NCBI RefSeq assembly: GCF_022763245.1
Contig: NZ_JALEGV010000012.1
Span: 558,001 to 622,000, forward strand
Source of the DNA: Oricola sp.
GTDB taxonomy: Bacteria; Pseudomonadota; Alphaproteobacteria; Rhizobiales; Rhizobiaceae
Length of the DNA stretch: 64,000 nucleotides
Direction of reading: 5' to 3'
The stretch's first letter is position 1, and every line of letters starts with the position of its first letter. The notes under the pieces were generated by a model. The model worked only from the letters and a program-made list of their open reading frames with translations, searched no databases and was not told the origin of the DNA. Position numbers and translations under genes: made by a program. Shown here in pieces: positions 26,448 through 49,791 of this stretch.

Positions 26448-26460
26448 GAGGAGACCGGCC

Positions 26461-27020: not shown

Positions 27021-27045
27021 CCGGACCGGGTCACGCCTGGTCCGG
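27021..27045. terminator. hairpin between convergent operons
   Basis: CCGGACC (27021-27027) pairs with GGTCCGG (27039-27045); with inner G-C pairs and one G-U the stem reaches 10 bp around a 5-base loop. It overlaps the stop codon of the minus-strand gene and follows the VOC gene by 11 bases. No T-run follows on either strand. Confidence 0.4.
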
Positions 27046-29770: not shown

Positions 29771-31254
29771 TCGGCCTCCTTCAGGGATTTGCGGTCAAGC
29801 CAGACGCTTCTCGCATGGACGATCAGCACGGCGACGATGACCAGGAAGAGGATCATCGCGACCGGCCGGTCGATGAAGTCGAACGGCTCCTTGACCCGCG
29901 CCATGCCGGCGCGCAGCTTCACCTCCATGATGCCGCCGAGCACCATGCCGAGGATGATCGGAACGACCGGAAGCGACAGCCGCTTCAGCACATAGCCGAT
30001 CATGCCGAACACGGCCGCGAGCACGCAGTCGGTCACCGAATTGCGCAGCGAGTAGACGCCCACGAAGGAGAGCGTCAGAACGCACAGGCCGAGAAACCGG
30101 TTCGGGATTTTCACGACGCTGATCAGCGGCCGCGTCGCGACGAGCAGGAAGAGGACGACCAGCACGTTGAGGATCAGGAGCGCCAGGTAGAGCGCCACGA
30201 TGAAATCCATCTGGTTCTGGAACAGGCCCGGTCCCGGCACGACGTTGTGGACGTAGAAGACGCTCAGCATCATCGCGGTCAGCGCCTCGCCCGGAATGCC
30301 GAGCGCCAGCAGCGGCACCATCGCGGCGGCCGGCACGGCGTTGTTGGAGGTCTCGGACGCGATCAGCCCTTCCGACGAGCCGTGGCCGAAATCCTGCGGC
30401 CGCTTCGAGGTCTTCTGCGCATAGGTATAGGACAGGAACTGCGCGGTGAACTCCCCGACCCCGGGGATCATGCCCATCAGCACGCCGAAGGAGGCCGAGA
30501 CGGCCGCGACGCGCGGATGCCGCGCCAATTCGCGAAAGCCCTGGAACAACCCGCCGCGCAGCCGCGTCGTGCGGATCTTCTCGTCCTCGCTGGTCAGAAG
30601 CACGAAGGCCTGGCTGAGCGCGAACAGGCCGAGCACGACCACGATCAGGTCGATGCCGCTCGACAGGAACGCCTGGTCGAAGGTGAAGCGCTTGGAATAC
30701 TTCACCGGCTCCAGGCCGATCGTCTGGATGAAGATGCCGAAGCCGGCCAGCGCGCCGGCGATCAGGCTCTGGCCGCGATGTGCGACGATCACGAGGATGA
30801 TGCCGAGCAGCGCCGCCAGGAAGATCTCGCGCGAGCCGAACAGCGGCGCGACCTTGGCGAGCACGGGCGCGAACAGGATCAGGCAGACCACCGAGAAGAT
30901 GCCGCCGAAAAACGAGGAGGAATAGGCGAGCGACAGCGCCCGGCGCGGCTCGCCGCGCGCGGTCATCGGATAGCCGTCATAGGTGGTCAGCGCGTTGACC
31001 GCCGTTCCGGGCGTGTTGATCAGCACCGCCGGGATGGAGCCGCCGTACATGGAGGAACCATAGATGCCGAGCAGCACGGTCAGCCCGACGATCGGGTCCA
31101 TGGAGAAGGTGGCGGGCAGGAGGATCGCGATGGCGACCGCCGGGCCGACGCCCGGGATCGCGCCGATCAGCACGCCGCCGATGGAGCCGACCAGCAGCGC
31201 CAGGATCACGTCCCAGCGCGCGAGTATCTCCAGGCTCGAGAGCAACAGGTCCAT
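29635..31254 (-). CDS. tctA: tripartite tricarboxylate transporter, large permease subunit
   Basis: A 539-residue integral membrane protein of the TctA family with about 11-12 helices. GAIPGVGPAVAIAILLP near residue 32 and the matching MGMIPGVGEFTAQFLSY near 260 are the two family repeats. It transports carboxylates with TctB and the binding protein TctC using the proton or sodium gradient. The family usually ends near residue 495; here no stop occurs and the last 45 residues, Ser/Arg-rich, are read out of frame through the start of the aldehyde dehydrogenase gene, a 136-base overlap. Confidence 0.93.
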   Translation of the reverse strand: MDLLLSSLEILARWDVILALLVGSIGGVLIGAIPGVGPAVAIAILLPATFSMDPIVGLTVLLGIYGSSMYGGSIPAVLINTPGTAVNALTTYDGYPMTARGEPRRALSLAYSSSFFGGIFSVVCLILFAPVLAKVAPLFGSREIFLAALLGIILVIVAHRGQSLIAGALAGFGIFIQTIGLEPVKYSKRFTFDQAFLSSGIDLIVVVLGLFALSQAFVLLTSEDEKIRTTRLRGGLFQGFRELARHPRVAAVSASFGVLMGMIPGVGEFTAQFLSYTYAQKTSKRPQDFGHGSSEGLIASETSNNAVPAAAMVPLLALGIPGEALTAMMLSVFYVHNVVPGPGLFQNQMDFIVALYLALLILNVLVVLFLLVATRPLISVVKIPNRFLGLCVLTLSFVGVYSLRNSVTDCVLAAVFGMIGYVLKRLSLPVVPIILGMVLGGIMEVKLRAGMARVKEPFDFIDRPVAMILFLVIVAVLIVHARSVWLDRKSLKEAEWQTKHRSTRFGALLFRRKSSLSKARGRQVKARHSTSYRRSTGRG

Positions 31255-31259
31255 GGGCG

Positions 31260-31790
31260 TCAGAGGTTCAGGATGAAGAAGCTGCGGACCGCGCCCGGCA
31301 GATACTCATAGATCATGCCGCCCGGGATCTTCACAGACAGGAAACTCTTGAAGACGATCACGGTCGCGATCGCGAACAGGATGCTCACCGCGATCATGCG
31401 CGTGGTACGATAGCCCAGACGCCACGACAGCGTGGCCGCGAACAGGATCGAGGCCGGCAGATAGCCGATGACGGGAACCACCAGCACATAGGCCATGAAC
31501 CAGATCGCATATTCCAGCGCCGCGGCCCATTTGCGCACTTCCACCCAGTCGGCGCCCGTGAAGCGGCGCCAGGGCAGCTTGGCGAGGTGAAGGCCGCCCA
31601 GCCCGACCAGGGCCATGAGGCCGACCGCCGGCCAGAAACGCGGCTGCGCGAAGAAACCGGTCTTCGCCACCCAGCGGGTCTGTGTCGGTGTCTGCGCCAG
31701 CAGGATCAGGCCGAAGACCATGAGGACGAGGGCGAAGACCAGCTGGCCTCGCCTCGGTCCCGGAAATCGGCGCTCGCGTTCTGTCTGCAC
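31260..31790 (-). CDS. tctB: tripartite tricarboxylate transporter, small subunit TctB
   Basis: A 176-residue membrane protein with four helices, the TctB partner of TctA. GQLVFALVLMVFGLILL begins helix one; ALEYAIWFMAYVLVVPVIGYLPA and the following segments are typical, cited here in part as IWFMAYVLVVPVIGYLPA. GTG 31790 is chosen because GGGAAGG sits five bases ahead; a TTG at 31817 would add nine residues but lacks such a site. Five bases separate it from tctA. Confidence 0.85.
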   Translation of the reverse strand: MQTERERRFPGPRRGQLVFALVLMVFGLILLAQTPTQTRWVAKTGFFAQPRFWPAVGLMALVGLGGLHLAKLPWRRFTGADWVEVRKWAAALEYAIWFMAYVLVVPVIGYLPASILFAATLSWRLGYRTTRMIAVSILFAIATVIVFKSFLSVKIPGGMIYEYLPGAVRSFFILNL

Positions 31791-31818
31791 TGTGGCCTTC
31801 CCGAAAGCCGGATACAAA

Positions 31819-31842
31819 TCGGGCCCGGAAATCCGGGCCCGA
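31819..31842 (-). promoter_or_regulatory. strong intercistronic stem-loop between tctC and tctB
   Basis: TCGGGCCCGG and CCGGGCCCGA form a perfect 10-bp stem with a 4-base loop, 12 bases after the tctC stop codon, followed on the minus strand by TTTGT. It could act as a partial terminator or 3' stabiliser that leaves more tctC than tctBA mRNA. Confidence 0.65.
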
Positions 31843-31853
31843 CAAACGATCTC

Positions 31854-32795
31854 TTACTGCAGGATCTCGCCGATGCGCTCGACGGTCTCGATGTCGTTGG
31901 CGATGCGCGCCGCGCTCTCGTCGGCGTCCTGCCAGTAGACCAGCGCCCCGGTCTCCTTGGCGACCGCCTGGGCGCGCTCGCTCATCACGGTCTTCTTGGC
32001 CACCGCGATGATCTTGTCGCGCACGTCCTGCGGCGTGTCCTTGGTCACGAACAGGCCGTTCCACAGCGCGATGTTCAGCGTCGGGTCCAGTTCGCCGATC
32101 GCCGGCGCGTCCGGCACGAGCGGAATGCGCTGGTCGGTGATCGCCGTCAGCACCTTCACGTCGTCGAGACAGGGCAGGATGAGCTGCAGCGTGGTGTTGA
32201 TCACGTCGGCGTCGCCGGAGGCGAGCGTGTTGCAATCCAGCGCGTCGAACGCGGCGTCAGAGCCCCATTCGAAACCGGCGTTCTTCGCAAACGCCTTGGT
32301 CACCTGCGTCGGCGTCAGCACGTCGCCGAAATGGCCGAGCGCGACGTCGTTGTCCTTGGCGTAGGCGGCCAGTTCCTCCATCGAGGAATAGGGCGCGTCG
32401 CCGCTGGTGGCGATGACGAAGGGATAGGTCAGGAAGATGCCGAGCGGATCGAACTTCGCCGGCGTCAGGTCCGGAATGTCGATCGTGTGACCCACCACCG
32501 GCACGCCGATGACGAAGGAGCCGATCATGTAGCCGTCGGCCGGCGCGTTCGCCACCTCGATGGCGCCCGGGAACGGGCCGCCGCCGCCGCCCGGCTTGTT
32601 CACCACGGCCGCCGCGACGCCGTATTCTGCCTGGAAGTCCTCGGCGATCATGCGGGTCAGAACGTCCTCGAGGTCACCCGGAGGCCACGGCACGATGAAG
32701 TTGACCGGCTTTTCGGGATACTCCGCATAGGCGGCGCTCCCCATCAGAATCATGGCGCCCGCGAGCGCGCTCTTGAGCAGAGTGGATTTGAACAC
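31854..32795 (-). CDS. tctC: tripartite tricarboxylate transporter binding protein (Bug/TctC family)
   Basis: A 313-residue periplasmic binding protein. A signal peptide spans about residues 1-24 (ending SAAYA|EYP). YPEKPVNFIVPWPPGD and VNKPGGGGGP are the two loops that contact carboxylate ligands in this family. GTG 32795 with GGGGAGG upstream. It is the first gene of the operon tctC-tctB-tctA-aldehyde dehydrogenase-Tm-1-like, divergent from iclR. The ligand is a carboxylate, not necessarily citrate. Confidence 0.93.
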   Translation of the reverse strand: MFKSTLLKSALAGAMILMGSAAYAEYPEKPVNFIVPWPPGDLEDVLTRMIAEDFQAEYGVAAAVVNKPGGGGGPFPGAIEVANAPADGYMIGSFVIGVPVVGHTIDIPDLTPAKFDPLGIFLTYPFVIATSGDAPYSSMEELAAYAKDNDVALGHFGDVLTPTQVTKAFAKNAGFEWGSDAAFDALDCNTLASGDADVINTTLQLILPCLDDVKVLTAITDQRIPLVPDAPAIGELDPTLNIALWNGLFVTKDTPQDVRDKIIAVAKKTVMSERAQAVAKETGALVYWQDADESAARIANDIETVERIGEILQ

Positions 32796-32947: not shown

Positions 32948-33724
32948 ATGGGAACCGTTTCCAAGGCATTGTCTTTATTGACGAATTTCAATCAGTCCCG
33001 CACCGAGATCGGACTGAGCGAAATTGCGCGGCTGGCCGGAATCAACAAGGCGACCGCCTATCGCCTCCTCACCGAACTTCAGGACGGCGGCTTCGTCGAA
33101 CAGGCGGGGCCGGAGAAATCCTACCGGCTCGGACCCGAGGTGCTGCGCCTCGCCAGGCTGCGCGAGGCCGCCGTGCCGCTGACGACCGCCGCGCGCCCGA
33201 TCCTCGACCGCCTCGCCGACATCACCCATGAGACCGCCCATGTCAGCGCGGTGCGCGGCATGACGCTGCACGCGCTCGCCCACGCCTATTCCCCCCGCCA
33301 CGCGACCCGCGTGATGATGGAGGACGCCGAAATCCTCTCCTTCCACGGAACCGGCTCGGGCCTGGCCGTGCTCGCCTTCTCGCCGAAGGCCTTCGTCGAT
33401 GCCGTCCTGGCGCAGCCGCTCACCCGTCATACGCCCGAAACGGTGACCGATCCCGATGCGCTGAACGCCATGTTCGCGCCGATCCGCGAGACCGGCGTCG
33501 CCGTGTCGATCGGCGGCTTCGAGGCCGACGTCCATTCCCACGCCACGCCCGTCTTCAACGCGGAAGGCCGGCCGATCGGCGCGCTCGCCGTCGCCGCCCC
33601 CGTCGCACGCGTCACCGCCGACCGCATCCCGCTGATCGTCCGGGCGGTGCTTGACGGCGCGGCCGAACTCACCCGCGCCATCGGCGGCTTTGCACCCGAC
33701 GGCTTCCCGGAGACCGCCATATGA
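32948..33724 (+). CDS. IclR family transcriptional regulator
   Basis: A 258-residue IclR-type regulator. The N-terminal winged helix (about residues 5-65, LSEIARLAGINKATAYRLL is the recognition element) is followed by the effector domain (about 85-245) with SFHGTGSGLAVLAFS and the usual GIAVS-like GVAVSIGGFEADVHS. It should sense a small carboxylate and control the divergent tctCBA operon through the GGTTC sites. Its stop overlaps the HAD hydrolase start (ATGA), so both are in the operon with the aminotransferase. Confidence 0.93.
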   Translation: MGTVSKALSLLTNFNQSRTEIGLSEIARLAGINKATAYRLLTELQDGGFVEQAGPEKSYRLGPEVLRLARLREAAVPLTTAARPILDRLADITHETAHVSAVRGMTLHALAHAYSPRHATRVMMEDAEILSFHGTGSGLAVLAFSPKAFVDAVLAQPLTRHTPETVTDPDALNAMFAPIRETGVAVSIGGFEADVHSHATPVFNAEGRPIGALAVAAPVARVTADRIPLIVRAVLDGAAELTRAIGGFAPDGFPETAI

Positions 33725-34379: not shown

Positions 34380-35732
34380 ATGAAGGATTCCAATTTTCTC
34401 AAGGAAAACAACGCCCGCCACATGTGGCACCCGATGGCGCATCCGGCCGACAGCCTTGCCAATCCGCCGAAGATCATCACCGGCGGCGCGGGCGCCCGCA
34501 TCCGTGACGTCGACGGGCGCGAGACCCTCGACGCCGTCGGCGGCCTCTGGAACGTCAATCTGGGCTTTTCCTGCGATCCGGTGAAGCGGGCCATCGCCGA
34601 CCAGCTCAACGCGCTGCCCTATTATTCCACCTTCCGCGGCACCACCAACGACGCGATCATCGAGCTCAGCTTCATGCTGCGCAATTTCTTCGCGCCGGAA
34701 GGCATGGCCCGCGCCTTCTTCACCTCCGGCGGCTCCGACAGCGTCGAGACGGCCCTTCGCCTCGCGCGCCAGTACCACAAGGTGCGCGGCGAACCGGGCC
34801 GGGTGAAATATCTGAGCCTGAAGAAGGGCTATCACGGCACCCATTTCGGCGGAGCGAGCGTCAACGGCAACGCCAATTTCCGCACCCAGTACGAGCCGCT
34901 CCTGCCCGGCTGCTACCACGTCCCCGCGCCCTACACCTATCGCAACCCGTTCAACGAGACCGACCCCGCCAAGCTGGCGCAGCTCTGCGCGCAGGCGCTG
35001 CAGGACGAGATCGCGTTCCAGGGCGCCGGCACCATCGCGGCCCTGATCATGGAGCCGGTGCTCGGCGCCGGCGGCGTGATCCCGCCGCATGAAAGCTTTA
35101 TGCCGATGGTGCGCGACATCTGCGACAGGAACGGCATCCTGCTGATCGCCGACGAGGTGATCACCGCCTTCGGCCGCACCGGCAGCTGGTCCGGCTCCCG
35201 CCACTGGGGCGTCAAACCCGACATGATGTCGACCGCAAAGGCCATCACCAACGGCTACTTCCCCTTCGGCGCCGTCATGCTGAACGAGACCATCGCCGAA
35301 GCCTTCGAAAGCGACACGTCGGGGCGCGCCGCCATTGGCCACGGCTACACCTATTCCGGCCATCCGGTCGGCGCGGCGGCGGCCATCGCCTGCCTGAGGG
35401 AGACCGAGCGCCTGAACGTCGCCGCCAATGCCGGCGAGCGCGGCGCTGAACTGTTCGCCGGTCTGAACGGGCTGGCCGGGAAGCACGACATCATCGGCGA
35501 CGTGCGCGGCGGCCACGGCCTCATGTGCGCGCTCGAGCTGGTGTCGGATCGCGACGCCAAGACGCCGATCGACAAGCAGACGATCGGCCGAATTTTCGAG
35601 GCGACCTACGAGGCCGGCGTCATGATCCGCGTCTCCGGCCCGAACATCATCCTGTCGCCGCCGCTGATCATCACCGCGGACGACGTTCAGCAGATCGTCG
35701 ACGCGCTGGATGCCGGCCTGTCCGATGCGTAA
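34380..35732 (+). CDS. class III (omega-amino acid:pyruvate type) aminotransferase
   Basis: A 450-residue PLP-dependent fold-type I aminotransferase. HMWHPM at the start, FTSGGSDSVETALRLARQY, LKKGYHGTHFGGASVNG, LIADEVITAFGRTGSW and STAKAITNGYFPFGAVM (Schiff-base Lys) are the class III hallmarks. Such enzymes move amino groups from terminal amines, taurine, beta-alanine or aromatic amines to pyruvate or 2-oxoglutarate. GGGAGGA precedes ATG 34380. In this setting it may deaminate an amine or omega-amino acid to the aldehyde handled by the dehydrogenase at 28286 (inference). Confidence 0.92.
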   Translation: MKDSNFLKENNARHMWHPMAHPADSLANPPKIITGGAGARIRDVDGRETLDAVGGLWNVNLGFSCDPVKRAIADQLNALPYYSTFRGTTNDAIIELSFMLRNFFAPEGMARAFFTSGGSDSVETALRLARQYHKVRGEPGRVKYLSLKKGYHGTHFGGASVNGNANFRTQYEPLLPGCYHVPAPYTYRNPFNETDPAKLAQLCAQALQDEIAFQGAGTIAALIMEPVLGAGGVIPPHESFMPMVRDICDRNGILLIADEVITAFGRTGSWSGSRHWGVKPDMMSTAKAITNGYFPFGAVMLNETIAEAFESDTSGRAAIGHGYTYSGHPVGAAAAIACLRETERLNVAANAGERGAELFAGLNGLAGKHDIIGDVRGGHGLMCALELVSDRDAKTPIDKQTIGRIFEATYEAGVMIRVSGPNIILSPPLIITADDVQQIVDALDAGLSDA

Positions 35733-35740: not shown

Positions 35741-36055
35741 TTACGGTTCGGGGACGATCAGCACCAGCCCGTCGAGCTCCGGCGAAGCGGTGATCTGGCA
35801 GGACAGCCGGCTTTCCGGCCGGCGCTCGGCCTCTGCGACATCGAGCATCGCGTCCTCGTAGTCGCCGGCCTCGCCGGTCTTCTCGCGCCAGGCCTCGTCG
35901 ACATAGACATGGCATGTGGCGCAGGAAAGATTGCCGCCGCACTCGCCGACCACATGCGGCACGTCGTTGGCGACGGCGGCTTCCATCATGTTCAGGCCGT
36001 TCGCGACCTCGCCGGAGATTTCGCGGCCGTCGGCGAGCTTCCAGATTACCTTCAT
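35741..36055 (-). CDS. [2Fe-2S] ferredoxin (adrenodoxin/putidaredoxin type)
   Basis: A 104-residue ferredoxin. The four cluster Cys are 39, 45, 48 and 86 (CX5CX2C...C; GECGGNLSCATCHVYVD). The spacing and CATCHVYVD match ferredoxins that feed bacterial P450s. It is the last gene of the P450-ligase-ferredoxin operon, 10 bases after the ligase stop. No ferredoxin reductase is nearby, so a shared reductase must be used. Confidence 0.95.
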   Translation of the reverse strand: MKVIWKLADGREISGEVANGLNMMEAAVANDVPHVVGECGGNLSCATCHVYVDEAWREKTGEAGDYEDAMLDVAEAERRPESRLSCQITASPELDGLVLIVPEP

Positions 36056-36065
36056 CGGTCCTGCC

Positions 36066-37358
36066 TCATACGAAATAGACGTAGAAGTCGCGCAGCGCGT
36101 CGCCTTCGAGATCGCGCGTTTTCTTGACTTCCTTTTCCTTCATGAAAACGTGATTGGCGACGAGGCCAGCCCCGACCGCCTCGCCCAGTACCGTGTCGGC
36201 CTTGAGGTCCGACACCGCGCCCTTCAGGTCGATCGCGGTGCCTTCCTTGGCATCGGTATTGTCGAAACCGTCGCCCGTCTCCATCGGCGGCAGCGCATAG
36301 CCGTTTTCGAGCCCGAGCCGCGCCGCCTGCAGTACCGCGGCGACCGCCGTGTAGGGATTGGCGGACGCATCGGCCGTCCGGTGCTCCAGCCGTGCCTTCG
36401 CCCCGCCCTCGGCGGAAACGCGCATCGTCACGTTGCGATGGTCCCCGCCCCAATTGCGCCAGTAGCCCGAGAGCGATCCCGGCTGCAGCCGCTGATAGGA
36501 ATTCGCAGTCGGCGCGATCAGTCCGGCCAGCCCCTTGTGGTGCTGCATCAGCCCCGCGACGCAGCCGCGCGCCAGATCGTTCATGTGATCCGGCCCGCCC
36601 TTCTCGCCGGTCGACAGCGCGTTGCCGCCGATCTCGTCGACGAAGGAGAAATTGATATGCATGCCCGACCCGCCGCATTCAGCGATCGGCTTGGGCATGA
36701 AGGAGAGGATGATGCCGTATTCCAGTGCGATCTCTCGCGCCATCAGCCGGAACAGCACGATGTCGTCCACCGCCTTGACCGCATCGTCAAAGGTCAGCGT
36801 GTATTCGAACTGCGGCGAGTCGTACTCTGCCGTGATCATCTCGATGGAGAAGCCGAGTTCGTCCGCGACCTCCCAGATGCGATCGTTGAAGCGCAGCGGA
36901 TCGGCATAGGGACCGGTACCGTAGACGACCCCGCCGGGACTGTCATAGGGCATCAGCCGGCCGTTCTCGTCGGCGACGAGGGCATAGGCTTCGAGCTCGA
37001 TGCCGACCTTCGGGCGCAGGCCGTGCTTCTGCCAGTCCGCGACCGCGCGCTTCAGCGCCCCGCGCGGGCACAGCTCCAGCGGCTCGCCGGCATCGTCGTA
37101 GAGATCGCCGATGACGATCTTTGTGTCGGCGTCCCAGCTGTCTCGAATGTCGTCATGGCGCCATTTCAGCTCCATGTCCGGCATCCCTTGGAGCACCATC
37201 GCTCCCGGCGCCTGCAAGAGCAGGTCGCGATCGTAATGCACGCCGAACGTCGAACGGCAGAACCGCGTGCCGGCATCGCCGATCTTCGATCCGGGCAGAT
37301 ACTTCCCGCGGACAATGCTCAGATGATCGCAAAAGACGGCGCGCAGTCTGGTTCTCAT
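36066..37358 (-). CDS. glutamine synthetase-like gamma-glutamylamide ligase
   Basis: A 430-residue member of the glutamine synthetase superfamily, type seen in PuuA, IpuC and the anilide synthetases. VGIELEAYAL holds metal/glutamate-binding acids, ECGGSGMHINFSF is the family's nucleotide/metal-binding motif (normally NGSGMH), TANSYQRLQPGSLSGYWRNWG and LEHRTADASANPYTAVA the glutamate-binding site. It should join glutamate to an amine with ATP, giving a gamma-glutamylamide. The adenylylation Tyr of GlnA is absent. The gene lies between a P450 and a ferredoxin gene (gaps of 11 and 10 bases), which points to an amine that is masked before oxidation. Confidence 0.88.
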   Translation of the reverse strand: MRTRLRAVFCDHLSIVRGKYLPGSKIGDAGTRFCRSTFGVHYDRDLLLQAPGAMVLQGMPDMELKWRHDDIRDSWDADTKIVIGDLYDDAGEPLELCPRGALKRAVADWQKHGLRPKVGIELEAYALVADENGRLMPYDSPGGVVYGTGPYADPLRFNDRIWEVADELGFSIEMITAEYDSPQFEYTLTFDDAVKAVDDIVLFRLMAREIALEYGIILSFMPKPIAECGGSGMHINFSFVDEIGGNALSTGEKGGPDHMNDLARGCVAGLMQHHKGLAGLIAPTANSYQRLQPGSLSGYWRNWGGDHRNVTMRVSAEGGAKARLEHRTADASANPYTAVAAVLQAARLGLENGYALPPMETGDGFDNTDAKEGTAIDLKGAVSDLKADTVLGEAVGAGLVANHVFMKEKEVKKTRDLEGDALRDFYVYFV

Positions 37359-37369
37359 GGGATGTGTCC

Positions 37370-38629
37370 TCAGGCCATTTCCACGGTGACGGGCAGGCTC
37401 TTGATACCACCGACGAAATTGGAACGGAGGAATTTATGCGGCCCCGCCGGTTCGATCGACTTGATCCGCCGGGCGAGCTCCTGGAACAGCACCCTCACCT
37501 CAAGCCGCGCCAGCCACATGCCGAGACACACATGCGGTCCGCCTTGCCCGAACGACATGTGCCGGTTGGGCGTACGATGCAGGTTCACCCGGAACGGATC
37601 GTCGAAGGCGGCATCGTCGCGATTGCCAGACGCGAACCACAACAGCACCTTGTCGCCCTCGCGGATCGTCTTGCCGTGCATCTCGAAATCCTCGGTCGCG
37701 GTGCGGCGAAAATAGAGCGCCGGCGTCGCCCAGCGGATGATCTCGTCCGGAGCGGTCTCCCAGACCGCCTCGTCGGACCGCATCTGGCCGAGCAGTTCCG
37801 GCTGGTGGCACATCGCCTGGATGCCGGCGGCGATGGAATAGCGCGTCGTGTCGTTGCCGGCCGCGACCAGCAGACAGAAGAAGTTGCGGAACTCGGTCTC
37901 CGATATCGTCTCGCCGTCGCGGCCGGGCTGCAGGATCAAATGCAGCACGCCCTCCGTGTCCCCGGCCGCCGCCTTCTTCGCCATCAGGTCGTTGGCATAT
38001 TCATAGAGTTCCGCCCCGGCGGGCGAATTGAACGGCATCATCCGGAACTCGTCCGTGTCCATCTTGTCGAGAACGTGGTCGGTGAAATCCGGATCGGTGT
38101 TGGCGATCAGGGCATCGCCCTTCTCCACCAGCCACGGCAGGTCCTCGTCCGGCGTGCCGATGATGCGGCCAAGCATGCGCATCGGCAGTTGTCGCGCGAT
38201 TTCCTTCGTCGCGTCGAACGTTCCCAGAGGCAGAGCCTGATCGAGGATCTCGTCGCACAGTGCGCGGATGTCCTCCTCGAAGCCCGCGATCACCGTCTTG
38301 GAAAACGCCTTTGCGACCTTGATGCGCGTTTTCATGTGTTCCGGGGCGTCGGTTTCCTGGAAGGTCCGGCGCGCCAGATATTCCTCGTAGGACTGATCCT
38401 CCATGCGGATGCCACGCGCCGAGGAGAACACCTTGGCATTGCCGTTCATGGCGAGAATGTCGGCATGGCGGGTCACCGACCAGAAGCCCTCGCCGCCATC
38501 CCATTCCGTCCAGCTCAGCGGATCGTCGCGGCGCATGCGCGCGAATGTGTTGTGCGGCGGGCCGGCGGTAAAGGCGTCGTGGCTGGAAAGATCCGCGCGG
38601 CCGTCATCGGTTGAGGTCCAGACTGTCAC
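37370..38629 (-). CDS. cytochrome P450
   Basis: A 419-residue soluble bacterial P450. The heme-ligand loop FGQGGPHVCLG carries Cys 368; the I-helix oxygen-activation motif is AAGNDTTR; the K-helix ExxR is EIIRW. FGxGGPHxCLG with AGNDTTR resembles actinobacterial/proteobacterial CYP125/142-like families more than CYP101. GTG 38629 follows AAAGGAT. It is the first gene of the operon with the gamma-glutamyl ligase and ferredoxin, and is divergent from an amidotransferase-like hydrolase. The probable reaction is hydroxylation or dealkylation of the amine or its gamma-glutamyl derivative. Confidence 0.95.
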   Translation of the reverse strand: MTVWTSTDDGRADLSSHDAFTAGPPHNTFARMRRDDPLSWTEWDGGEGFWSVTRHADILAMNGNAKVFSSARGIRMEDQSYEEYLARRTFQETDAPEHMKTRIKVAKAFSKTVIAGFEEDIRALCDEILDQALPLGTFDATKEIARQLPMRMLGRIIGTPDEDLPWLVEKGDALIANTDPDFTDHVLDKMDTDEFRMMPFNSPAGAELYEYANDLMAKKAAAGDTEGVLHLILQPGRDGETISETEFRNFFCLLVAAGNDTTRYSIAAGIQAMCHQPELLGQMRSDEAVWETAPDEIIRWATPALYFRRTATEDFEMHGKTIREGDKVLLWFASGNRDDAAFDDPFRVNLHRTPNRHMSFGQGGPHVCLGMWLARLEVRVLFQELARRIKSIEPAGPHKFLRSNFVGGIKSLPVTVEMA

Positions 38630-38650
38630 GATGCATCCTTTCCAATCGCC

Positions 38651-38695
38651 GTTTTATGTATATTATGCGCCATCATAAATATGTAAACATGTTTC
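38651..38695. promoter_or_regulatory. A/T-rich divergent promoter/operator of the P450 and amidotransferase genes
   Basis: The 78-base gap is strongly A/T-rich. It holds TTATG(38663-38667)/CATAA(38674-38678), ATGTAAACAT (38681-38690, palindromic arms) and GTATAT (38658). GTATATAC, a full 8-base palindrome, also occurs upstream of the nearby GntR gene (40094-40101), hinting at a common regulator. Confidence 0.4.
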
Positions 38696-38707
38696 TGCGG
38701 GCGGGTC

Positions 38708-39439
38708 ATGCATCTGGCGATCCTGATGACGAACACGGATGAAAGCGCCTTCGCGCAGCGTCATCCGAAAGACGGCGAGAAATTCACCGCCCTGATCCGG
38801 AGCGCGCGCCCGGACTGGGCCTGCACCGCCTTGTCCGTGAAGGACGACGTCTTCCCCGACGATCTCTCCGCCTTTGACGGCTACATCGTCACCGGCAGCC
38901 CCGCCTCGGTCCATGACGGGGCCCAGTGGATCGATCGGCTGATGGAGACGATCCGCGAGATCGTGAACCGCAAGATCCCGCTCTTCGGCGCCTGTTTCGG
39001 CCATCAGGCCATCGCGCTGGCACTCGGCGGCGAAGTGGGAAACAATCCGGATGGCTGGGTGTTCGGCCTGACGAAGGCGGATGTCGTCGATCGCGCGTCC
39101 TGGATGGCGCCGCTTGGCGACAGCCTCGCCCAATATGGCGCGCATATCGAGCAGGTCACCACGCCGCCGGACGGCGCCCGCGTCCTGATCGGCTCCGCGC
39201 CCTGCCCGGTCGGCGGCTTTGCCATCGGCGACCATGTGTTCACGACCCAGAACCATCCGGAAATGACGCCGGATTTCATCGCGGCGCTGGTCGAGGAATA
39301 TGCCGGAAAACTGGACCCGCACGTTGTCGCGACCGCACGCGCTTCCCTGGCTGCCAAGGCCGATTACGCGGACTTCGCCGAAACGATCGCGCGGTTCTTC
39401 GAAAACGCTGTCAGTTCACCGCAGCAAGCAAATCCATGA
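38708..39439 (+). CDS. class I glutamine amidotransferase-like protein
   Basis: A 243-residue GATase1-fold protein. The nucleophile Cys 96 is in GACFGHQ, with His 183 and Glu 185 in QNHPEM. It resembles stand-alone GMP-synthase-like amidotransferase domains, the same type that accompanies GS-like ligases in aniline degradation (TdnT/AtdA2-type). It would hydrolyse the gamma-glutamyl bond, returning glutamate. Divergent from the P450 operon with a 78-base shared promoter region; its 3' end overlaps the convergent GntR gene by 29 bases. Confidence 0.9.
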   Translation: MHLAILMTNTDESAFAQRHPKDGEKFTALIRSARPDWACTALSVKDDVFPDDLSAFDGYIVTGSPASVHDGAQWIDRLMETIREIVNRKIPLFGACFGHQAIALALGGEVGNNPDGWVFGLTKADVVDRASWMAPLGDSLAQYGAHIEQVTTPPDGARVLIGSAPCPVGGFAIGDHVFTTQNHPEMTPDFIAALVEEYAGKLDPHVVATARASLAAKADYADFAETIARFFENAVSSPQQANP

Positions 39440-40061
39440 CCGTGCCGCGGTCATAGTTGAAATGCGCCTCCATCGCCTCCTCGGCCTCCTCGCGCCGGTG
39501 CTCGGCGATCAGCGTCGCGATGGCGCGGTGCTCCTTCGCCGAACCCTCGACCGAACCGGGATAGCGGTATCGCGCCCGGTAATAGGCCATCAGCTTGCGG
39601 GCGTTGGTCTTGATGAGCTCGATCAGGACCGGATTGCCCGACGCAAGCGCGATCACCTCGTGAAAGCGCAGATTGAGCTGGTAATACTCCGCCGGCCGGC
39701 TGCTGCCGAATTCGACCGCATGCGCCTCGCAGGCCTCGACGATCTCCTCCAGTTCTCGCGCAAGGTCCGGCGTCAGGCGCCGGGCCGCCAGCCCCGCGGC
39801 CTGCGCCTCAAGCCGCGCATGCACCTCGATGATGCCGAGGAACTCCTCCAGCGTCGGCTTGAACAGAAGCGCCCCCTTGCGGGCGTGCCGCTGCACGAGA
39901 CCCGTCGCCTCCAGCCGGATCAGCGCCTCGCGAACCGGGGTCCGTGACACGCCGTGTTTCGCGATCAGCGCCTGCTCGTCGACGGCCTCGCCCGGCCCGA
40001 TCTCGCCCCGGTCGATGGCGGACAGGATCGCCTCGATCACCATGTCGGTCTGGCCCGCCAT
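39411..40061 (-). CDS. GntR family regulator, FCD (FadR) subfamily
   Basis: A 216-residue GntR-type regulator. The N-terminal winged helix (about residues 5-70) contains LIAKHGVSRTPVREALIRLE and RHARKGALLF; the C-terminal helical FCD domain includes LNLRFHEVIALASGN and EHRAIATLIAEHRR with the metal-binding His residues. It probably controls the P450 and amidotransferase genes beside it. An 8-base palindrome GTATATAC lies about 35 bases ahead of its start. Confidence 0.93.
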   Translation of the reverse strand: MAGQTDMVIEAILSAIDRGEIGPGEAVDEQALIAKHGVSRTPVREALIRLEATGLVQRHARKGALLFKPTLEEFLGIIEVHARLEAQAAGLAARRLTPDLARELEEIVEACEAHAVEFGSSRPAEYYQLNLRFHEVIALASGNPVLIELIKTNARKLMAYYRARYRYPGSVEGSAKEHRAIATLIAEHRREEAEEAMEAHFNYDRGTVMDLLAAVN

Positions 40062-40132: not shown

Positions 40133-40591
40133 CTACAGCCGCAGGCCGTCGAGTTCGTTGAGCAGATCGAGAAGCGTTTCGAGCTTCTCCTTGCCGAGGT
40201 GATCCTGCAGCCGCGCCATGATCCTCTCGCTCTCATCCATGTTAGCGGCAATGAAGCGGCGCCCCTCCGGCGTGATCGATATCTGCAGGCGCCGGCCGTC
40301 GGTCGGATGCGGCATCCGGTTGAGATAGCCCTTCTCGACGAGCGTGTGCATCATGCGCGTCAGGCTCGGCAGCAGCAGGCAGGAGCGCTCTGCGATCTCG
40401 GTCGGGTCCATCGCGCCGTTCTCGTCGAGCACGCGCAGCACCCGCCATTGCTGTTCGGTGACGCCGGCATCGACCAGCATGGCGCGAATGGGTCCCATCA
40501 CCGTCTCGCGAGCCCTCAAGAGAGCAATCGGCAATGAGCGGGCCGTGGTAAGGCCGGCGGCGGGCAAGGTAGCGGCTCGTGGCTTGTCCAT
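40133..40591 (-). CDS. hpaR: MarR-type repressor of homoprotocatechuate degradation
   Basis: A 152-residue MarR-family protein whose sequence follows HpaR: SLPIALLRARETVMGPIR, then VTEQQWRVLRVLDENG, LLLPSLTRMMHTLVEKGYLNR and the wing with DGRRLQISITPEG. ATG 40591 is chosen; the frame is open upstream but that part is antisense to hpaF. It is divergent from the hpa operon and should repress it until 4-hydroxy- or 3,4-dihydroxyphenylacetate appears. A symmetrical A/T-rich site overlaps the opposing promoter. Confidence 0.92.
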   Translation of the reverse strand: MDKPRAATLPAAGLTTARSLPIALLRARETVMGPIRAMLVDAGVTEQQWRVLRVLDENGAMDPTEIAERSCLLLPSLTRMMHTLVEKGYLNRMPHPTDGRRLQISITPEGRRFIAANMDESERIMARLQDHLGKEKLETLLDLLNELDGLRL

Positions 40592-40649
40592 GACGCTTCT
40601 CTGCCTTTCGCGAACGGATTGTGCAAGCATGCGAAGCCGCAGATCCATG

Positions 40650-40708: not shown

Positions 40709-41095
40709 TTGCCGCATATCGCAATCGACTATTCCGCCAATCTCGAAGACCTGGTGGACATGCCGGGCCTCTGCGAGGTTCTGCGCACAACCGGCATCGC
40801 GACAGGCGTGTTTCCCGTGGCCGGGATTCGCGTTCGCGCGTTCAGGGCCGACCATGTCGCAATTGCCGACGGCGATCCGCGCCATGGCTACCTCGATATC
40901 TCGGTCAGGCTGCGCGGCGGCCGAAGCTTCGAGGCGAAGAAGGCGGCGACGGAAAGGCTCTTCGCCGCGGCGCGCGACTTCCTCGCACCCGTCATCGCAA
41001 CACATCCGGTGGCGCTGTCGATGGAGATGCGCGACATCGATCCGGCCCTGAGCCCCAAACTGAATACGATCAGAGACCACTTGAAGGACGGCTGA
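40709..41095 (+). CDS. hpaF: 5-carboxymethyl-2-hydroxymuconate delta-isomerase
   Basis: A 128-residue tautomerase-superfamily enzyme (CHMI) that isomerises 5-carboxymethyl-2-hydroxymuconate in homoprotocatechuate degradation. After Met removal the catalytic N-terminal Pro is exposed (MPHIAIDYS). Later ISVRLRGGRSFEAKKA and MEMRDIDPALSPKLNTI match the family. The TTG at 40709 is accepted because only it places Pro next to the initiator; GAGGGAGG precedes it. First gene of the hpa operon; hpaE follows after two bases. Confidence 0.92.
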   Translation: MPHIAIDYSANLEDLVDMPGLCEVLRTTGIATGVFPVAGIRVRAFRADHVAIADGDPRHGYLDISVRLRGGRSFEAKKAATERLFAAARDFLAPVIATHPVALSMEMRDIDPALSPKLNTIRDHLKDG

Positions 41096-41097: not shown

Positions 41098-42609
41098 TTG
41101 TCCACACTCCAGCAAAACCTCGAAAAGCTCGAGACCTACATCGCCCGCTTCAAACAGGACGGCGTCCTCAATCAGATCGCCGGCGAAGCGCGGCCCGCAA
41201 TCTCGGGCGAATCCTTCGACAACCACTCGCCGGTCGACGAAAGCTTCATCTGCTCCGTCGCGCGCGGCGACGCCGCAGACATTGACGCGGCGGCGAAGGC
41301 GGCAAAGGACGCCTTCCCGGCCTGGCGGGACCTCGACGCCGGCAACCGCAAGAAGATCTTGCACCGCATCGCCGACCGCATCGTGGCGCGCGCCGACGAG
41401 ATCGCGCTCGCGGAGTGCTGGGACACCGGCCAGGCGCACCGCTTCATGTCCAAGGCAGCCTTGCGCGGCGCGGAGAACTTCCGCTTCTTCGCCGATCGCG
41501 CGCCTTCGGCCCGTGACGGACACGTCCTGCCCTCCCCGACCTTGATGAACGTCACCACCCGCGTGCCGATCGGCCCGGTCGGCGTCATCACGCCGTGGAA
41601 CACGCCCTTCATGCTGTCGACATGGAAGATCGCGCCCGCGCTCGCCGCGGGATGCACGGTCGTCCACAAGCCGGCCGAATTCTCGCCGGTCACCGCGCGC
41701 ATCCTCATGGAGATCGCGGAAGAAGCCGGGCTGCCCGCCGGCGTGTGGAACCTCGTCAACGGCTTCGGCGAACAGGCCGGCAAGGCGCTGACCGAGCATC
41801 CCGACATCAAGGCGATCGCCTTCGTGGGAGAAAGCCGCACCGGCTCGATGATCATGAAACAGGGCGCGGATACGCTGAAGCGCGTCCATTTCGAACTCGG
41901 CGGCAAGAACCCCGTCATCGTCTTCGAGGATGCCGATCTCGACCGCGCGCTGGATGCCGCGATCTTCATGATCTACTCGCTGAACGGCGAGCGCTGCACC
42001 TCGTCCTCGCGGCTTCTCGTCCAGGAGTCGATCGCAGACGAATTCCAGGCCCGCCTCGTCGAGCGCGTCAACCAGATCAAGGTCGGACATCCGCTCGATC
42101 CGTCGACCGAAATGGGTCCGCTGATCCACAAGACCCATTTCGACAAGGTGACCTCCTATTTCGACGTGGCGAAGTCCGACGGCGCGACGATTGCCGCCGG
42201 TGGCGAACGGGCGGGCGACACGGGCTGGTTCGTCAAGCCGACCCTCTTCACCGGCGCCAGGCCCGGCATGCGGATCGCTCAGGAGGAGATCTTCGGCCCG
42301 GTGCTCACCGCGATCACCTTCAAGGACGAAGAAGAAGCCCTTGAGATCGCCAACGGCGTCGAATACGGCCTGACGGGCTATGTCTGGACCAACGACCTCA
42401 CCCGCGCGCTGCGCTTCACCAACAAGCTGGAAGCCGGCATGATCTGGGTGAATTCGGAGAACGTCCGCCACCTGCCGACCCCGTTCGGCGGCGTGAAGGC
42501 GAGCGGCATCGGTCGCGATGGCGGCGACTGGTCGTTCGAGTTCTACATGGAACAGAAGCACATCGGCTTCGCCACCGGCCAGCATCACATCCCGCAACTG
42601 GGCACGTGA
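41098..42609 (+). CDS. hpaE: 5-carboxymethyl-2-hydroxymuconate semialdehyde dehydrogenase
   Basis: A 503-residue aldehyde dehydrogenase of the HpaE group that oxidises the ring-fission semialdehyde to the dicarboxylate. Glu 266 (FELGGKNP) and Cys 300 (NGERCTSSSR) are the catalytic pair; WNTPFMLSTWKIAPALA and FGGVKASGIGRDGGDWSFEFY, shown in part as GVKASGIGRDGGDW, are HpaE-like. A TTG start at 41098 follows the hpaF stop by two bases and fits the family N-terminus. Cytoplasmic. Confidence 0.94.
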   Translation: MSTLQQNLEKLETYIARFKQDGVLNQIAGEARPAISGESFDNHSPVDESFICSVARGDAADIDAAAKAAKDAFPAWRDLDAGNRKKILHRIADRIVARADEIALAECWDTGQAHRFMSKAALRGAENFRFFADRAPSARDGHVLPSPTLMNVTTRVPIGPVGVITPWNTPFMLSTWKIAPALAAGCTVVHKPAEFSPVTARILMEIAEEAGLPAGVWNLVNGFGEQAGKALTEHPDIKAIAFVGESRTGSMIMKQGADTLKRVHFELGGKNPVIVFEDADLDRALDAAIFMIYSLNGERCTSSSRLLVQESIADEFQARLVERVNQIKVGHPLDPSTEMGPLIHKTHFDKVTSYFDVAKSDGATIAAGGERAGDTGWFVKPTLFTGARPGMRIAQEEIFGPVLTAITFKDEEEALEIANGVEYGLTGYVWTNDLTRALRFTNKLEAGMIWVNSENVRHLPTPFGGVKASGIGRDGGDWSFEFYMEQKHIGFATGQHHIPQLGT

Positions 42610-42651
42610 CCTGCAAGCCGCGACGTGCCGTCATGACGGGGAGGAGTGAAC

Positions 42652-43506
42652 ATGGGTGAGATCGTACTGGCCGCCAAGGTCACGCATGTGCCGACGCTTC
42701 AGATGTCGGAGCAGGAAGGGCCCCTCAAGGGCACGCGCCAGCCGGCCATCGACGGCCATCTGGAGATCGCGCGCCGCGCCAAGGCGCTCGGCGTCGATAC
42801 CGTGGTGATCTGCGACACCCACTGGCTGATCAATGCGGGCTTCCACGTCAACGCCAACGACCGTTACGAGGGGCTGCTGACCTCCAGCGAGTTTCCGCAG
42901 TTCATCCGCGACATGCCCTATGACCACCGCGGCAACCCCGAACTCGGCGACGCCATTGCCGAGAAGGCGACCGAGCTCGGCGTCTACACGCTCGCCCATC
43001 ACCTCGATTCGCTTGATCTCGAATACGGCACGCTCGTGCCGATGCATTTCATGAGCCGCGAACACGACATGAAGGTCGTCTCGGTCGCGGCCTTCTGCAC
43101 CGTGCACGACCACGACGAGAGCCGCGTCGTCGGCGAAGCCATTCGTGCCGCGGTCGAAGCGTCGGATTCCAGGGTGTTGCTGCTCGCCTCGGGCTCGCTC
43201 TCCCACGAGATTTGGTCGAACAAGGACTACGCGCCCAACAACGGCACCTTCACCATCTCCTCTGAATTCAACCGGCAGGTCGATCTCATGGTGCTGGAGA
43301 TGTGGAAGCGCGGCGACCACGCCACGTTCCTGAAGATCCTGGGCGACTATGCACATCACTGCTCCGGCGAAGGCTCGATGCACGACACCGCCATGCTGTA
43401 TGGCGCCCTCGGCTGGGACGCCTATACCGGCCAGTGCGAGATCGTGACCGAATATTTCCCGAGCTCCGGCACCGGCCAGGTCAACGTCATATTCCCCGTC
43501 TCCTGA
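42652..43506 (+). CDS. hpaD: homoprotocatechuate 2,3-dioxygenase, LigB type
   Basis: A 284-residue type II (LigB-superfamily) extradiol dioxygenase, very like E. coli HpcB/HpaD (283 aa): AAKVTHVPTLQMSE, VICDTHWLINAGFHVN, EYGTLVPMHFM, VLLLASGSLSHEIW, GEGSMHDTAMLYGALGWD and FPSSGTGQVN. It opens 3,4-dihydroxyphenylacetate next to the hydroxyls. ATG 42652 has GGGGAGGA at proper distance; a GTG six bases upstream is less likely. The following gene encodes an unrelated enzyme for the same reaction. Confidence 0.94.
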   Translation: MGEIVLAAKVTHVPTLQMSEQEGPLKGTRQPAIDGHLEIARRAKALGVDTVVICDTHWLINAGFHVNANDRYEGLLTSSEFPQFIRDMPYDHRGNPELGDAIAEKATELGVYTLAHHLDSLDLEYGTLVPMHFMSREHDMKVVSVAAFCTVHDHDESRVVGEAIRAAVEASDSRVLLLASGSLSHEIWSNKDYAPNNGTFTISSEFNRQVDLMVLEMWKRGDHATFLKILGDYAHHCSGEGSMHDTAMLYGALGWDAYTGQCEIVTEYFPSSGTGQVNVIFPVS

Positions 43507-43539
43507 CGGCACACCCAAAGCAATCGAAGAGAAACTCCC

Positions 43540-44520
43540 ATGCCGATCCCAGCACCGGTCCTCTATCCTCCCTTCAACATCGTGCGCCTGTCACACGTCG
43601 AGCTGGCGGTGACGGATCTCGCCAAGAGCCGCGCCTTCTATGTCGATACGCTCGGCCTGCAGGTGACCGACGAAACGGCGGACACCATCTATCTGCGTGC
43701 CATGGAGGAACGCGGCCACCATTGCATCGTGCTCCGCAAGGAGGAGCAGGCGGTCGCCCGCGATCTCGGTTTCAAGGTCTTCGACGAGGAGGACCTCGAG
43801 AAAGCCGTGCATTTCTTCAAGAGCAAGGACCTGCCGGTCGAGTGGGTCGAACGGCCCTACCAGTCGCGCACCTTCCGCACCCGTGATCCGCACGGCATTC
43901 CGCTGGAATTCTATTCCCGCATGGACCGCCTTCCGCCGATCCACCAGCAATACAAGCTCTACAAGGGCGTGAAGCCGCTGCGCATCGATCACTTCAACTG
44001 CTTCACGCCGAATGTCGATGAATCAGTCGCCTTCTATAACGAGATCGGCTTCAGGGTCACCGAATATACCGAGGACGAGGTGACCGGCCGGCTGTGGGCG
44101 GCCTGGACGCACCGCAAGGGCGGCGTCCACGACATGGCCTTCACAAATGGCCGTGGCCCGCGCCTGCATCACACCGCCTTCTGGGTGCCGACCCCGCTCA
44201 ACATCATCGACCTGCTCGACCTGATGGCGACGACCGGCTGGGTTTCCAATATCGAGCGCGGCCCCGGCCGCCACGGCATCTCGAACGCCTTCTTCCTCTA
44301 TATCCGCGATCCCGACGGCCACCGCATCGAGATCTATTGTTCAGACTACCAGACCGTCGATCCGGACCTGGAGCCCATCAAGTGGGACCTCAAGGACCCG
44401 CAGCGCCAGACGCTGTGGGGGGCGCCCGCGCCGCGCTCATGGTTCGAGGAAGGAAGCCTGTTCGAGGGCTCCGACGTCATCGAGCCGAGCCTCGCCGCAC
44501 AACCCATCGTCGCACCGTAG
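43540..44520 (+). CDS. 3,4-dihydroxyphenylacetate 2,3-dioxygenase, VOC type (HPCD/MndD-like)
   Basis: A 326-residue type I extradiol dioxygenase. Metal ligands correspond to those of Brevibacterium HPCD: His 151 (IDHFN), His 211 (LHHTAFW) and Glu 264 (RIEIY), and second-sphere His 197 (HDMAF) and Tyr 254 are kept, so the enzyme looks active with Fe(II) or Mn(II). It follows the LigB-type hpaD by 33 bases. Two non-homologous enzymes for one step suggest either different substrates (for instance a methoxylated or homologous catechol) or different conditions. Confidence 0.9.
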   Translation: MPIPAPVLYPPFNIVRLSHVELAVTDLAKSRAFYVDTLGLQVTDETADTIYLRAMEERGHHCIVLRKEEQAVARDLGFKVFDEEDLEKAVHFFKSKDLPVEWVERPYQSRTFRTRDPHGIPLEFYSRMDRLPPIHQQYKLYKGVKPLRIDHFNCFTPNVDESVAFYNEIGFRVTEYTEDEVTGRLWAAWTHRKGGVHDMAFTNGRGPRLHHTAFWVPTPLNIIDLLDLMATTGWVSNIERGPGRHGISNAFFLYIRDPDGHRIEIYCSDYQTVDPDLEPIKWDLKDPQRQTLWGAPAPRSWFEEGSLFEGSDVIEPSLAAQPIVAP

Positions 44521-48869: not shown

Positions 48870-48900
48870 CGTGCAGCCCGTCGGTCCGTACTCTTGGAGG

Positions 48901-49725: not shown

Positions 49726-49765
49726 GTCGGCTTGTCCGGAACGGCAGTGTTGATCGGTCAGTTGC

Positions 49766-49791
49766 GGGTCCGGCGGTTGATCGCCGGACCC
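49766..49791 (-). promoter_or_regulatory. strong stem-loop after the binding-protein gene
   Basis: GGGTCCGGCG (49766-49775) pairs perfectly with CGCCGGACCC (49782-49791) around a 6-base loop, 16 bases beyond the binding-protein stop codon and ahead of livF. No T-run follows, so mRNA stabilisation is more likely than termination. Confidence 0.6.

Follow-up and report, generated by a model that had tools for sequence, protein, structure and literature searches.

In the aniline pathway, the ligase AtdA1 and the amidotransferase-like protein AtdA2 bracket an aromatic oxygenation, which is carried out by a Rieske dioxygenase rather than by a cytochrome P450 (P450), on an arylamine rather than an arylethylamine. 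In the putrescine (Puu) pathway, PuuA, PuuB, PuuC, and PuuD accomplish gamma-glutamylation, oxidation by a flavin oxidase, and hydrolysis. Here, we analyze a module of four genes, encoding a P450, a glutamine synthetase (GS)-like ligase, a [2Fe-2S] ferredoxin, and an amidotransferase-fold hydrolase, which lies at positions 35741-39439 of a 64,000-nucleotide stretch (hereafter the window) of the genome of Oricola sp. (Rhizobiaceae; assembly GCF_022763245.1, contig NZ_JALEGV010000012.1, positions 558,001-622,000). The closest described system is the isopropylamine (Ipu) pathway, in which, according to its published description, a ligase masks isopropylamine as a gamma-glutamyl amide, a P450 oxidizes it, and release by an amidotransferase is postulated (PMC6776027). 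P450s with a ferredoxin and a reductase are also described for mycobacterial morpholine and piperidine clusters (morA and pipA), and in Gulosibacter a glutamine synthetase gene adjoins each of two related P450 genes, as judged by locus-tag number. In that description, however, the P450 hydroxylates the N-heterocycle itself and glutamine synthetase is linked to nitrogen assimilation (PMC9477822).

We compared the module with the Ipu system, known from Pseudomonas KIE171 and Paenarthrobacter aurescens TC1, which comprises IpuC, a P450/ferredoxin/reductase set, and an IpuF-type amidotransferase. On plasmid pTC1 of strain TC1 (locus L107), the genes for an amidotransferase, P450, ferredoxin, ferredoxin reductase, and IpuC are side by side, and a GS-like ligase, P450, ferredoxin, and amidotransferase are thus clustered in both systems. 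The proteins themselves differ. The ligase and P450 of the module are only 31 and 26% identical to the Ipu enzymes, the amidotransferase beside the TC1 P450 gave no match to that of the module (a second TC1 amidotransferase is 27% identical), and the TC1 ferredoxin, which has 68 amino acids, gave no match here. Furthermore, there is no reductase gene in the window's unit, and its setting is aromatic, with homoprotocatechuate (hpa) genes, a decarboxylase, and an aminotransferase. Judged by sequence comparison, the gene set of the module is the Ipu set, but orthology to the Ipu enzymes fails. This overturns the statement in a preliminary description of this DNA that no described pathway has this exact set; what would be new here is that the set is used on arylethylamines and is coupled to hpa, a transaminase, and a decarboxylase. 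In the open-licence literature (CC0, CC BY, and CC BY-SA), we found no description of the module or of bacterial gamma-glutamyl tyramine/dopamine catabolism.

The remaining pathways share less with the locus. Whereas a neighboring aldehyde dehydrogenase is PuuC/KauB-like, the ligase scores 169.9 bits against an NCBIfam equivalog cut-off of 650 for PuuA (GGputSyn). None of the four module proteins matched a Rieske family, the oxygenase being a P450, which sets the module apart from the aniline pathway. The lower pathway (HpaD, HpaE, HpaF, HpaG, and HpaH) is the same as in the HpaBC-type 4-hydroxyphenylacetate pathway, but the window's genome, which is 98.76% complete, has no match to HpaB (PF03241) and carries an aromatic amino acid decarboxylase gene inside its hpa operon.

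The ferredoxin, ligase, and P450 genes form one tight operon on the minus strand, with gaps of 11 base pairs (bp) from P450 to ligase and 10 bp from ligase to ferredoxin, and the hydrolase gene is divergent. The four open reading frames are as the preliminary description had them, and so are the hpa operon and the aromatic decarboxylase gene nearby, as well as the intact heme Cys of the P450 and Cys-His-Glu triad of the hydrolase. That description overlooked the neighboring class III aminotransferase gene (AT3), which proved to be linked to hpa even where the module is absent. All four proteins score above the curated Pfam cut-offs (Fer2, 32.5 bits; Gln-synt_C, 238 bits; p450, 53.7 bits; and GATase, 54.1 bits). 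In the P450, the heme ligand Cys368 lies in FGQGGPHVCLG and the I-helix reads AGNDTT (257-262), and in the ferredoxin Cys39, Cys45, Cys48, and Cys86 are all intact. The heme Cys motif, the I-helix acid-Thr pair, and the four ferredoxin cysteines are those of a class I P450/[2Fe-2S] ferredoxin system. The best NCBIfam match of the ferredoxin is the ISC-type ferredoxin, below cut-off, and the nearest solved relatives of the P450 are CYP125MRCA, CYP268A2, CYP126, and CYP124. The hydrolase, with Cys96, His183, and Glu185 in place, has gamma-glutamyl peptidase 1 (GGP1) as its best solved relative by sequence (75 bits). The ligase falls below the NCBIfam PuuA and glutamine synthetase equivalog cut-offs. 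In GlnA, the Glu of the VPGFEAP loop, which we take to be Glu327 of the Salmonella enzyme, helps ammonium binding. When aligned with this genome's own GlnA, the ligase has QPGSLSG at this place, and the Glu is replaced. IpuC lacks this Glu as well, as do three further GS-like proteins of the window's genome. Its loss is expected of a GS-like ligase for an amine other than ammonia, but because of these three it does not name the ligase's amine.

The enzymes that flank the module were compared in the same way. The decarboxylase belongs to the aromatic L-amino acid decarboxylase family, and its best solved relative is the 3,4-dihydroxyphenylalanine (DOPA) decarboxylase 7xin (388 bits), followed by tyrosine and aromatic amino acid decarboxylases; its sequence does not tell a preference for DOPA from one for tyrosine. 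The nearest solved relatives of the aminotransferase by sequence include omega-transaminases. The best NCBIfam matches of the aldehyde dehydrogenase in the AT3 unit are PuuC (531 bits) and the phenylacetaldehyde dehydrogenase StyD (448 bits), both below cut-off, and comparison with PDB entries places it as KauB/PuuC-like.

The module is conserved as a unit. Genome contigs were scanned with an alignment of five ligase sequences, and from the 475 confirmed matches we retained the 80 best. By their titles, most of these loci belong to marine Rhodobacterales, and near duplicates occur among them at least once (L083/L086). The closest ligases are from an Ahrensia metagenome-assembled genome (95% identity), Oricola indica (92%), and O. 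nitratireducens (90%). A P450 and a hydrolase gene were each found in 79 of the 80 loci, a GntR-type regulator gene in 70, and a ferredoxin gene in 52. The only locus without a P450 is L053, and the sequence of L095, the only one without a hydrolase, starts shortly ahead of the P450. With both genes kept in 79 of 80 loci, the arrangement is not due to chance. In 57 of 83 cases, the stretch separating the P450 and hydrolase genes contains both halves of TGTATATTAT-N8-ATAAATATGTAA with the same spacing, versus none of 16600 single-base shuffles, for a pattern that was defined after inspection of these regions. At up to three mismatches, it is the sole match in the window (0 expected); with no further copies across the window, no operator shared with hpa or AT3 was found. 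Among the window's relatives the module is patchy, because four of 100 other genomes of its own family have a ligase of 59-74% identity, and among 115 alphaproteobacteria drawn (counting the window's genome) only a single further genome had a ligase match that passed 1e-120. In Ruegeria sp. TM1040 (L105, 21430-22176) and other loci, a gene for an FkbM-family methyltransferase follows the ligase gene, and a search of these loci showed no ferredoxin gene nearby; an FkbM cluster occurs in 21 of 86 loci, sometimes alongside a ferredoxin.

We then asked which genes occur together with the module in 248 genomes from the Shimia thalassica family, in which missing genes may be assembly gaps. Genomes with a ligase of at least 59% identity were taken as carriers (n = 42) and 202 as non-carriers, and four with homologs of 48-50% were set aside from the counts. 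HpaH (E value of at most 1e-100) is present in 38/42 carriers versus 52/202 non-carriers, the DOPA/tyrosine-type decarboxylase (at most 1e-120) in 41/42 versus 73/202, and the class III aminotransferase (at most 1e-190) in 41/42 versus 62/202. Under stricter definitions, the counts are 36/42 versus 51/202 for HpaH (above the curated score), 27/42 versus 38/202 for the decarboxylase (at least 62% identity), and 37/42 versus 38/202 for the aminotransferase (at least 71% identity). Because relatedness could fake such counts, we performed a phylogenetic control. From 42 carriers and 38 non-carriers, the latter taken at even steps from the 202, a quick RpoB tree was built without a mixture model for 72 of the 80 genomes; the eight without an RpoB match, two of them carriers, were left out. 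The module state changes at least 16 times on this tree, and there are 13 independent pairs. At the loose cut-offs, HpaH differs in the direction of the module in a mean of 10.2 pairs and in the opposite direction in 0.1 (median p 0.002), the aminotransferase in 9.3 and 0.0 (p 0.004), and the decarboxylase in 7.8 and 0.0 (p 0.008). At the strict ones, HpaH (9.8 and 1.2, p 0.012) and the aminotransferase (8.5 and 0.7, p 0.02) hold. hpa and the aminotransferase are thus firm partners of the module, and the decarboxylase is a likely one. The suggestion in the preliminary description that the four genes be sought elsewhere and might travel with hpa is therefore borne out, whereas co-inheritance with the decarboxylase stands at the loose cut-off and not at the strict one.

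Genes of the phenylacetyl-coenzyme A (paa) pathway were considered as the main partner and rejected. PaaA is present in 32/42 carriers versus 79/202 non-carriers, a significant difference by raw Fisher test, and paaA-E adjoin the module in Ruegeria sp. TM1040, but under the phylogenetic control 5.7 pairs are for and 2.0 against (p 0.29).

Physical linkage was measured from start to start, with decarboxylase positions from 66 genomes, counted down to ~62% identity, and PaaA positions from 14 genomes. Within 30 kilobases (kb) of the ligase gene lie the aminotransferase gene in 22 of the 42 carriers, HpaH in seven, close homologs of the decarboxylase in six, and PaaA in five, with ~0.6 expected for each by chance in a 4-Mb genome. 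Close homologs of the decarboxylase start within 3.5 kb of HpaH in 30 of the 49 genomes that have both. In some genomes, module and hpa genes form runs whose gene orders differ. Genome G310 (L159 and L167) has aminotransferase-Tct-hydrolase-P450-ligase-HpaF-HpaE-HpaD-decarboxylase-HpaG-HpaH on one strand. In G297 (L170), the run, also on one strand, is aminotransferase-HpaF-HpaE-HpaD-HpaG-HpaH-P450-ligase-ferredoxin-Tct genes. In G300 (L171), the genes from HpaF to HpaH lie on the same strand as those for GntR, P450, and ligase, and the hydrolase gene, which is divergent, stands among them. At the four loci with the set-aside 48-50% homologs (L159, L160, L168, and L169), P450 and hydrolase genes are near the ligase gene in all. 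The aminotransferase is tied to HpaH even without the module, being present in 38 of 52 HpaH-positive non-carriers versus 24 of 150 HpaH-negative ones, and in 12 of these 38 it is within 30 kb of HpaH.

More distant P450/ligase pairs adjoin HpaD-, HpaE-, and HpaG-like genes in Novosphingobium (P450 58% and ligase 49% identical) and Streptomyces canus (40 and 33%). On plasmids of S. canus (L109, 734-9233) and Novosphingobium EMRT-2 (L106, 12676-22126), P450/GS-like pairs occur with an MppR-like protein of the acetoacetate decarboxylase family, and these loci are possibly a second, distinct arylamine pathway. Separately, plasmids of Sagittula stellata (L110, 5926-9233) and Novosphingobium humi (L162, 7213-10260) have genes for a GS-like protein, an amidotransferase, and a P450 in a row (P450 39%, ligase 25%); the Sagittula row is near genes for a salicylyl-CoA 5-hydroxylase and a ring-hydroxylating dioxygenase.

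Leaving the exact oxidation aside, the module probably serves arylethylamine breakdown into the hpa pathway. By the logic of the Ipu pathway, the amine should be of the kind made by the decarboxylase of the hpa operon. On these comparisons an aromatic ethylamine appears to be the best substrate class. The phenethylamine-type substrate guessed earlier is thereby strongly supported, and the chemistry put forward with that guess, in which a gamma-glutamyl amine is made, oxidized by the P450, and hydrolyzed, would match the Ipu pathway. As for the individual steps, we infer substrates and reactions from gene families, motifs, conservation of the unit, co-inheritance, and co-localization, and we favor the following scheme tentatively, at a little under an even chance. 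Tyramine, made from tyrosine by the decarboxylase or taken up, would be joined to glutamate by the GS-like ligase at the expense of ATP. The resulting gamma-glutamyltyramine would be hydroxylated on the ring to gamma-glutamyldopamine by the P450, fed by the ferredoxin, and the amidotransferase-fold hydrolase would release dopamine and glutamate. The class III aminotransferase and the aldehyde dehydrogenase would then convert dopamine into 3,4-dihydroxyphenylacetate, to be degraded by the Hpa enzymes. Masking would keep the free amine off the heme iron and free catecholamine low.

The weak link of this scheme, in our judgment, is ring hydroxylation rather than side-chain oxidation. In its favor, the canonical hydroxylase HpaB was found neither in the window's genome nor in 38/42 carriers, in a search that did not extend to other hydroxylases or amine oxidases. 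Since the link between aminotransferase and hpa persists where the module is absent, deamination looks already provided, which suggests that the job of the P450 is another one. Genomes without the module would seem able to degrade dopamine through decarboxylase, aminotransferase, and Hpa enzymes, and the simplest view of the module is then that it supplies the ring hydroxyl by which tyrosine and tyramine can enter. Mammalian CYP2D is described as turning tyramine into dopamine (PMC8097730). Among Phaeobacter strains, P. inhibens DSM 17395 is reported to respire tyramine and P. gallaeciensis CIP 105210 not to do so (PMC4148982), and these strains are a ready phenotype pair for the module. A complementary distribution of HpaB and the module was tried as a candidate and rejected, HpaB being found in 10/52 HpaH-positive non-carriers versus 4/38 HpaH-positive carriers (Fisher p 0.38). 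HpaB lies within ~12 kb of HpaH in three non-carriers (G284, G299, and G360, in the last also beside AT3), which is too few to count.

Several findings weigh against the scheme. HpaB is also absent from 42/52 HpaH-positive non-carriers, so its absence does not single out the carriers, and HpaH-positive non-carriers without either hydroxylase presumably start from a catechol. The nearest solved relative of the decarboxylase is named a DOPA decarboxylase, and if the enzyme takes only DOPA, ring hydroxylation is not needed. With strict decarboxylase, the independent pairs are 4.8 and 0.0 (p 0.06), mostly with too few differing pairs to reach 0.05; we have left our estimate of the scheme where it was, because tyramine uptake is possible and the place of the decarboxylase in hpa operons stands. 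Ferredoxin is local in just 52/80 loci, and in G297 no hydrolase homolog was found in the 19.9 kb around P450 and ligase. For the Novosphingobium and Streptomyces pairs, no homologs of the decarboxylase, aminotransferase, or hydrolase were found in the stretches examined. Finally, the paaA cluster is near the module in 20/86 loci.

Some of these findings would be accommodated if the P450 attacked, in gamma-glutamyldopamine or gamma-glutamyltyramine, the carbon adjoining the amide nitrogen. The resulting carbinolamide would fall apart into arylacetaldehyde and glutamine, so that the P450 itself deaminates and a separate amine-cleaving enzyme is unnecessary, and the amidotransferase-fold protein would recover glutamate from glutamine or from stalled amides. 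We regard this as rather unlikely, although it is compatible with a DOPA-specific decarboxylase, fits G297 without its nearby hydrolase, and fits Novosphingobium and Streptomyces, where ligase, P450, ferredoxin, and aldehyde dehydrogenase occur and no aminotransferase or hydrolase homolog was found in the stretches examined. Such a P450 would, however, be redundant with the aminotransferase, present in 41/42 carriers, and retention of the hydrolase in 79/80 loci is more than glutamine recycling would need. Moreover, the Ipu P450 hydroxylates while the amide stays intact, according to the published description (PMC6776027).

An alternative that we deem unlikely is action of the P450 on a decorated phenethylamine, e.g. 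3-methoxytyramine, N-methyltyramine, or a beta-hydroxylated amine, whose gamma-glutamyl amide would undergo demethylation or side-chain oxidation before entry into hpa. Like the tyramine scheme, this would explain why the module is added to a pathway apparently complete from dopamine, and the hpa, homogentisate-type (HmgA and fumarylacetoacetase), and paa genes near different copies make up a broad arylacetate context. On the other hand, no genes for handling methyl groups or formaldehyde stood out among the annotated neighbors, no search having been aimed at them. That the module is Ipu-like in function, acting on a small aliphatic or polyamine substrate and being a mere neighbor of the aromatic genes, is very unlikely. 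The identities to the isopropylamine enzymes (31% for the ligase and 26% for the P450) speak for it, but the same-strand hpa runs in differing orders (L159, L170, and L171) and the co-inheritance with hpa under phylogenetic control speak against it. Most improbable is service to phenethylamine and the paa pathway with hpa as a bystander, because the PaaA association, despite the counts and the TM1040 synteny, is not significant under the control in which HpaH and the aminotransferase keep theirs, and the window's own neighborhood is hpa.

The features of the locus are listed in Table 1. The AT3 unit is left of the module (27.0-35.7 kb) and comprises genes for the aminotransferase, a HAD protein, IclR, the tripartite transporter, the aldehyde dehydrogenase, and UPF0261; the hpa operon is on the right (40.7-47.6 kb), in the order HpaF-HpaE-HpaD-HpaD-decarboxylase-HpaG-HpaH. 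We think that the GntR/FCD regulator, the aminotransferase unit, and the hpa/decarboxylase operon belong with the module.

Table 1. Features of the locus, with positions and strands in the window
Feature	Position	Strand	Evidence
[2Fe-2S] ferredoxin, probable P450 electron donor	35741..36055	-	Fer2, Cys39/45/48/86
GS-like ligase, proposed gamma-glutamyl arylethylamide synthetase	36066..37358	-	Gln-synt_C 238 bits
Cytochrome P450, proposed monooxygenase on gamma-glutamyl amide	37370..38629	-, GTG start	p450, Cys368
Class I amidotransferase-fold hydrolase, proposed gamma-glutamyl hydrolase	38708..39439	+	GATase, Cys96/His183/Glu185
Two-part motif TGTATATTAT-N8-ATAAATATGTAA in divergent promoter region, probable operator or promoter	38657..38686		
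GntR/FCD-family regulator, kept beside module	39411..40061	-	GntR + FCD; 70/80 loci
Class III aminotransferase (AT3), proposed amine to aldehyde step	34380..35732	+	PRK07481 over cut-off
Aldehyde dehydrogenase of AT3 unit, proposed arylacetaldehyde oxidation	28286..29770	-	
TctA, TctB, and TctC tripartite tricarboxylate-type transporter genes, AT3 unit	29635..32795	-	Pfam TctA, TctB, TctC
IclR regulator of AT3 unit	32948..33724	+	Pfam IclR; kept in AT3 loci
MarR-family regulator beside hpa operon, start uncertain	40133..40600	-	MarR domain
HpaF, 5-carboxymethyl-2-hydroxymuconate isomerase	40709..41095	+	CHMI
HpaE, semialdehyde dehydrogenase	41098..42609	+	TIGR02299 over cut-off
HpaD, LigB-like 3,4-dihydroxyphenylacetate 2,3-dioxygenase	42646..43506	+	TIGR02298 over cut-off
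Second HpaD, VOC-type 3,4-dihydroxyphenylacetate 2,3-dioxygenase	43540..44520	+	TIGR02295 over cut-off
Pyridoxal phosphate (PLP) decarboxylase (DC), DOPA/tyrosine-decarboxylase-like	44532..45950	+	Pyridoxal_deC 329 bits
HpaG-like decarboxylase/isomerase	45943..46806	+	Best NCBIfam HpaG C-terminal, below cut-off
HpaH, 2-oxo-hept-4-ene-1,7-dioate hydratase	46803..47609	+	TIGR02312 over cut-off

Other observations concern the surroundings. A UPF0261/Tm-1-like protein (27031-28272) is kept in the AT3/transporter/aldehyde dehydrogenase unit. The two dioxygenases adjacent in the hpa operon (42646-44520) are of different families, TIGR02298 and TIGR02295, both over curated cut-offs, and homologs of the two are also side by side in several related loci. 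Further left (22495-27009), there are genes for fumarylacetoacetase-like, metallo-beta-lactamase-fold, flavin adenine dinucleotide (FAD) monooxygenase (PRK08132), and glyoxalase-fold proteins. In a number of roseobacter loci, relatives of the metallo-beta-lactamase-fold protein and the FAD monooxygenase are encoded immediately upstream of the P450 module, together with genes for homogentisate dioxygenase, fumarylacetoacetase, decarboxylase, and HpaI. Beyond the hpa operon (47625-56202), genes for a PaaK-like CoA ligase, a periplasmic binding protein, a branched-chain amino acid-type permease, and a second AMP-binding ligase perhaps serve uptake and activation of an aromatic acid.

If the scheme holds for tyramine and dopamine, gamma-glutamyl masking, which has been described with subsequent P450 oxidation for isopropylamine (PMC6776027), would be a strategy of general use by which P450s could act on amines. 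There would then be a bacterial catecholamine route via gamma-glutamyl intermediates, in which a P450 replaces the flavin hydroxylase, as well as a P450/ligase/hydrolase set for catecholamine production. Four gene families so far annotated in general terms would gain a function, and a direct genetic test would be possible in culturable roseobacters. It is quite possible, although somewhat less likely than not, that many marine roseobacters and their relatives degrade tyrosine-derived tyramine without HpaBC in this way, through a gamma-glutamyl amide, P450 hydroxylation to a catechol, release of dopamine, and a transaminase. A missing step would thereby be supplied to a common marine pathway, in which the hpa operon includes a decarboxylase and HpaBC is absent.

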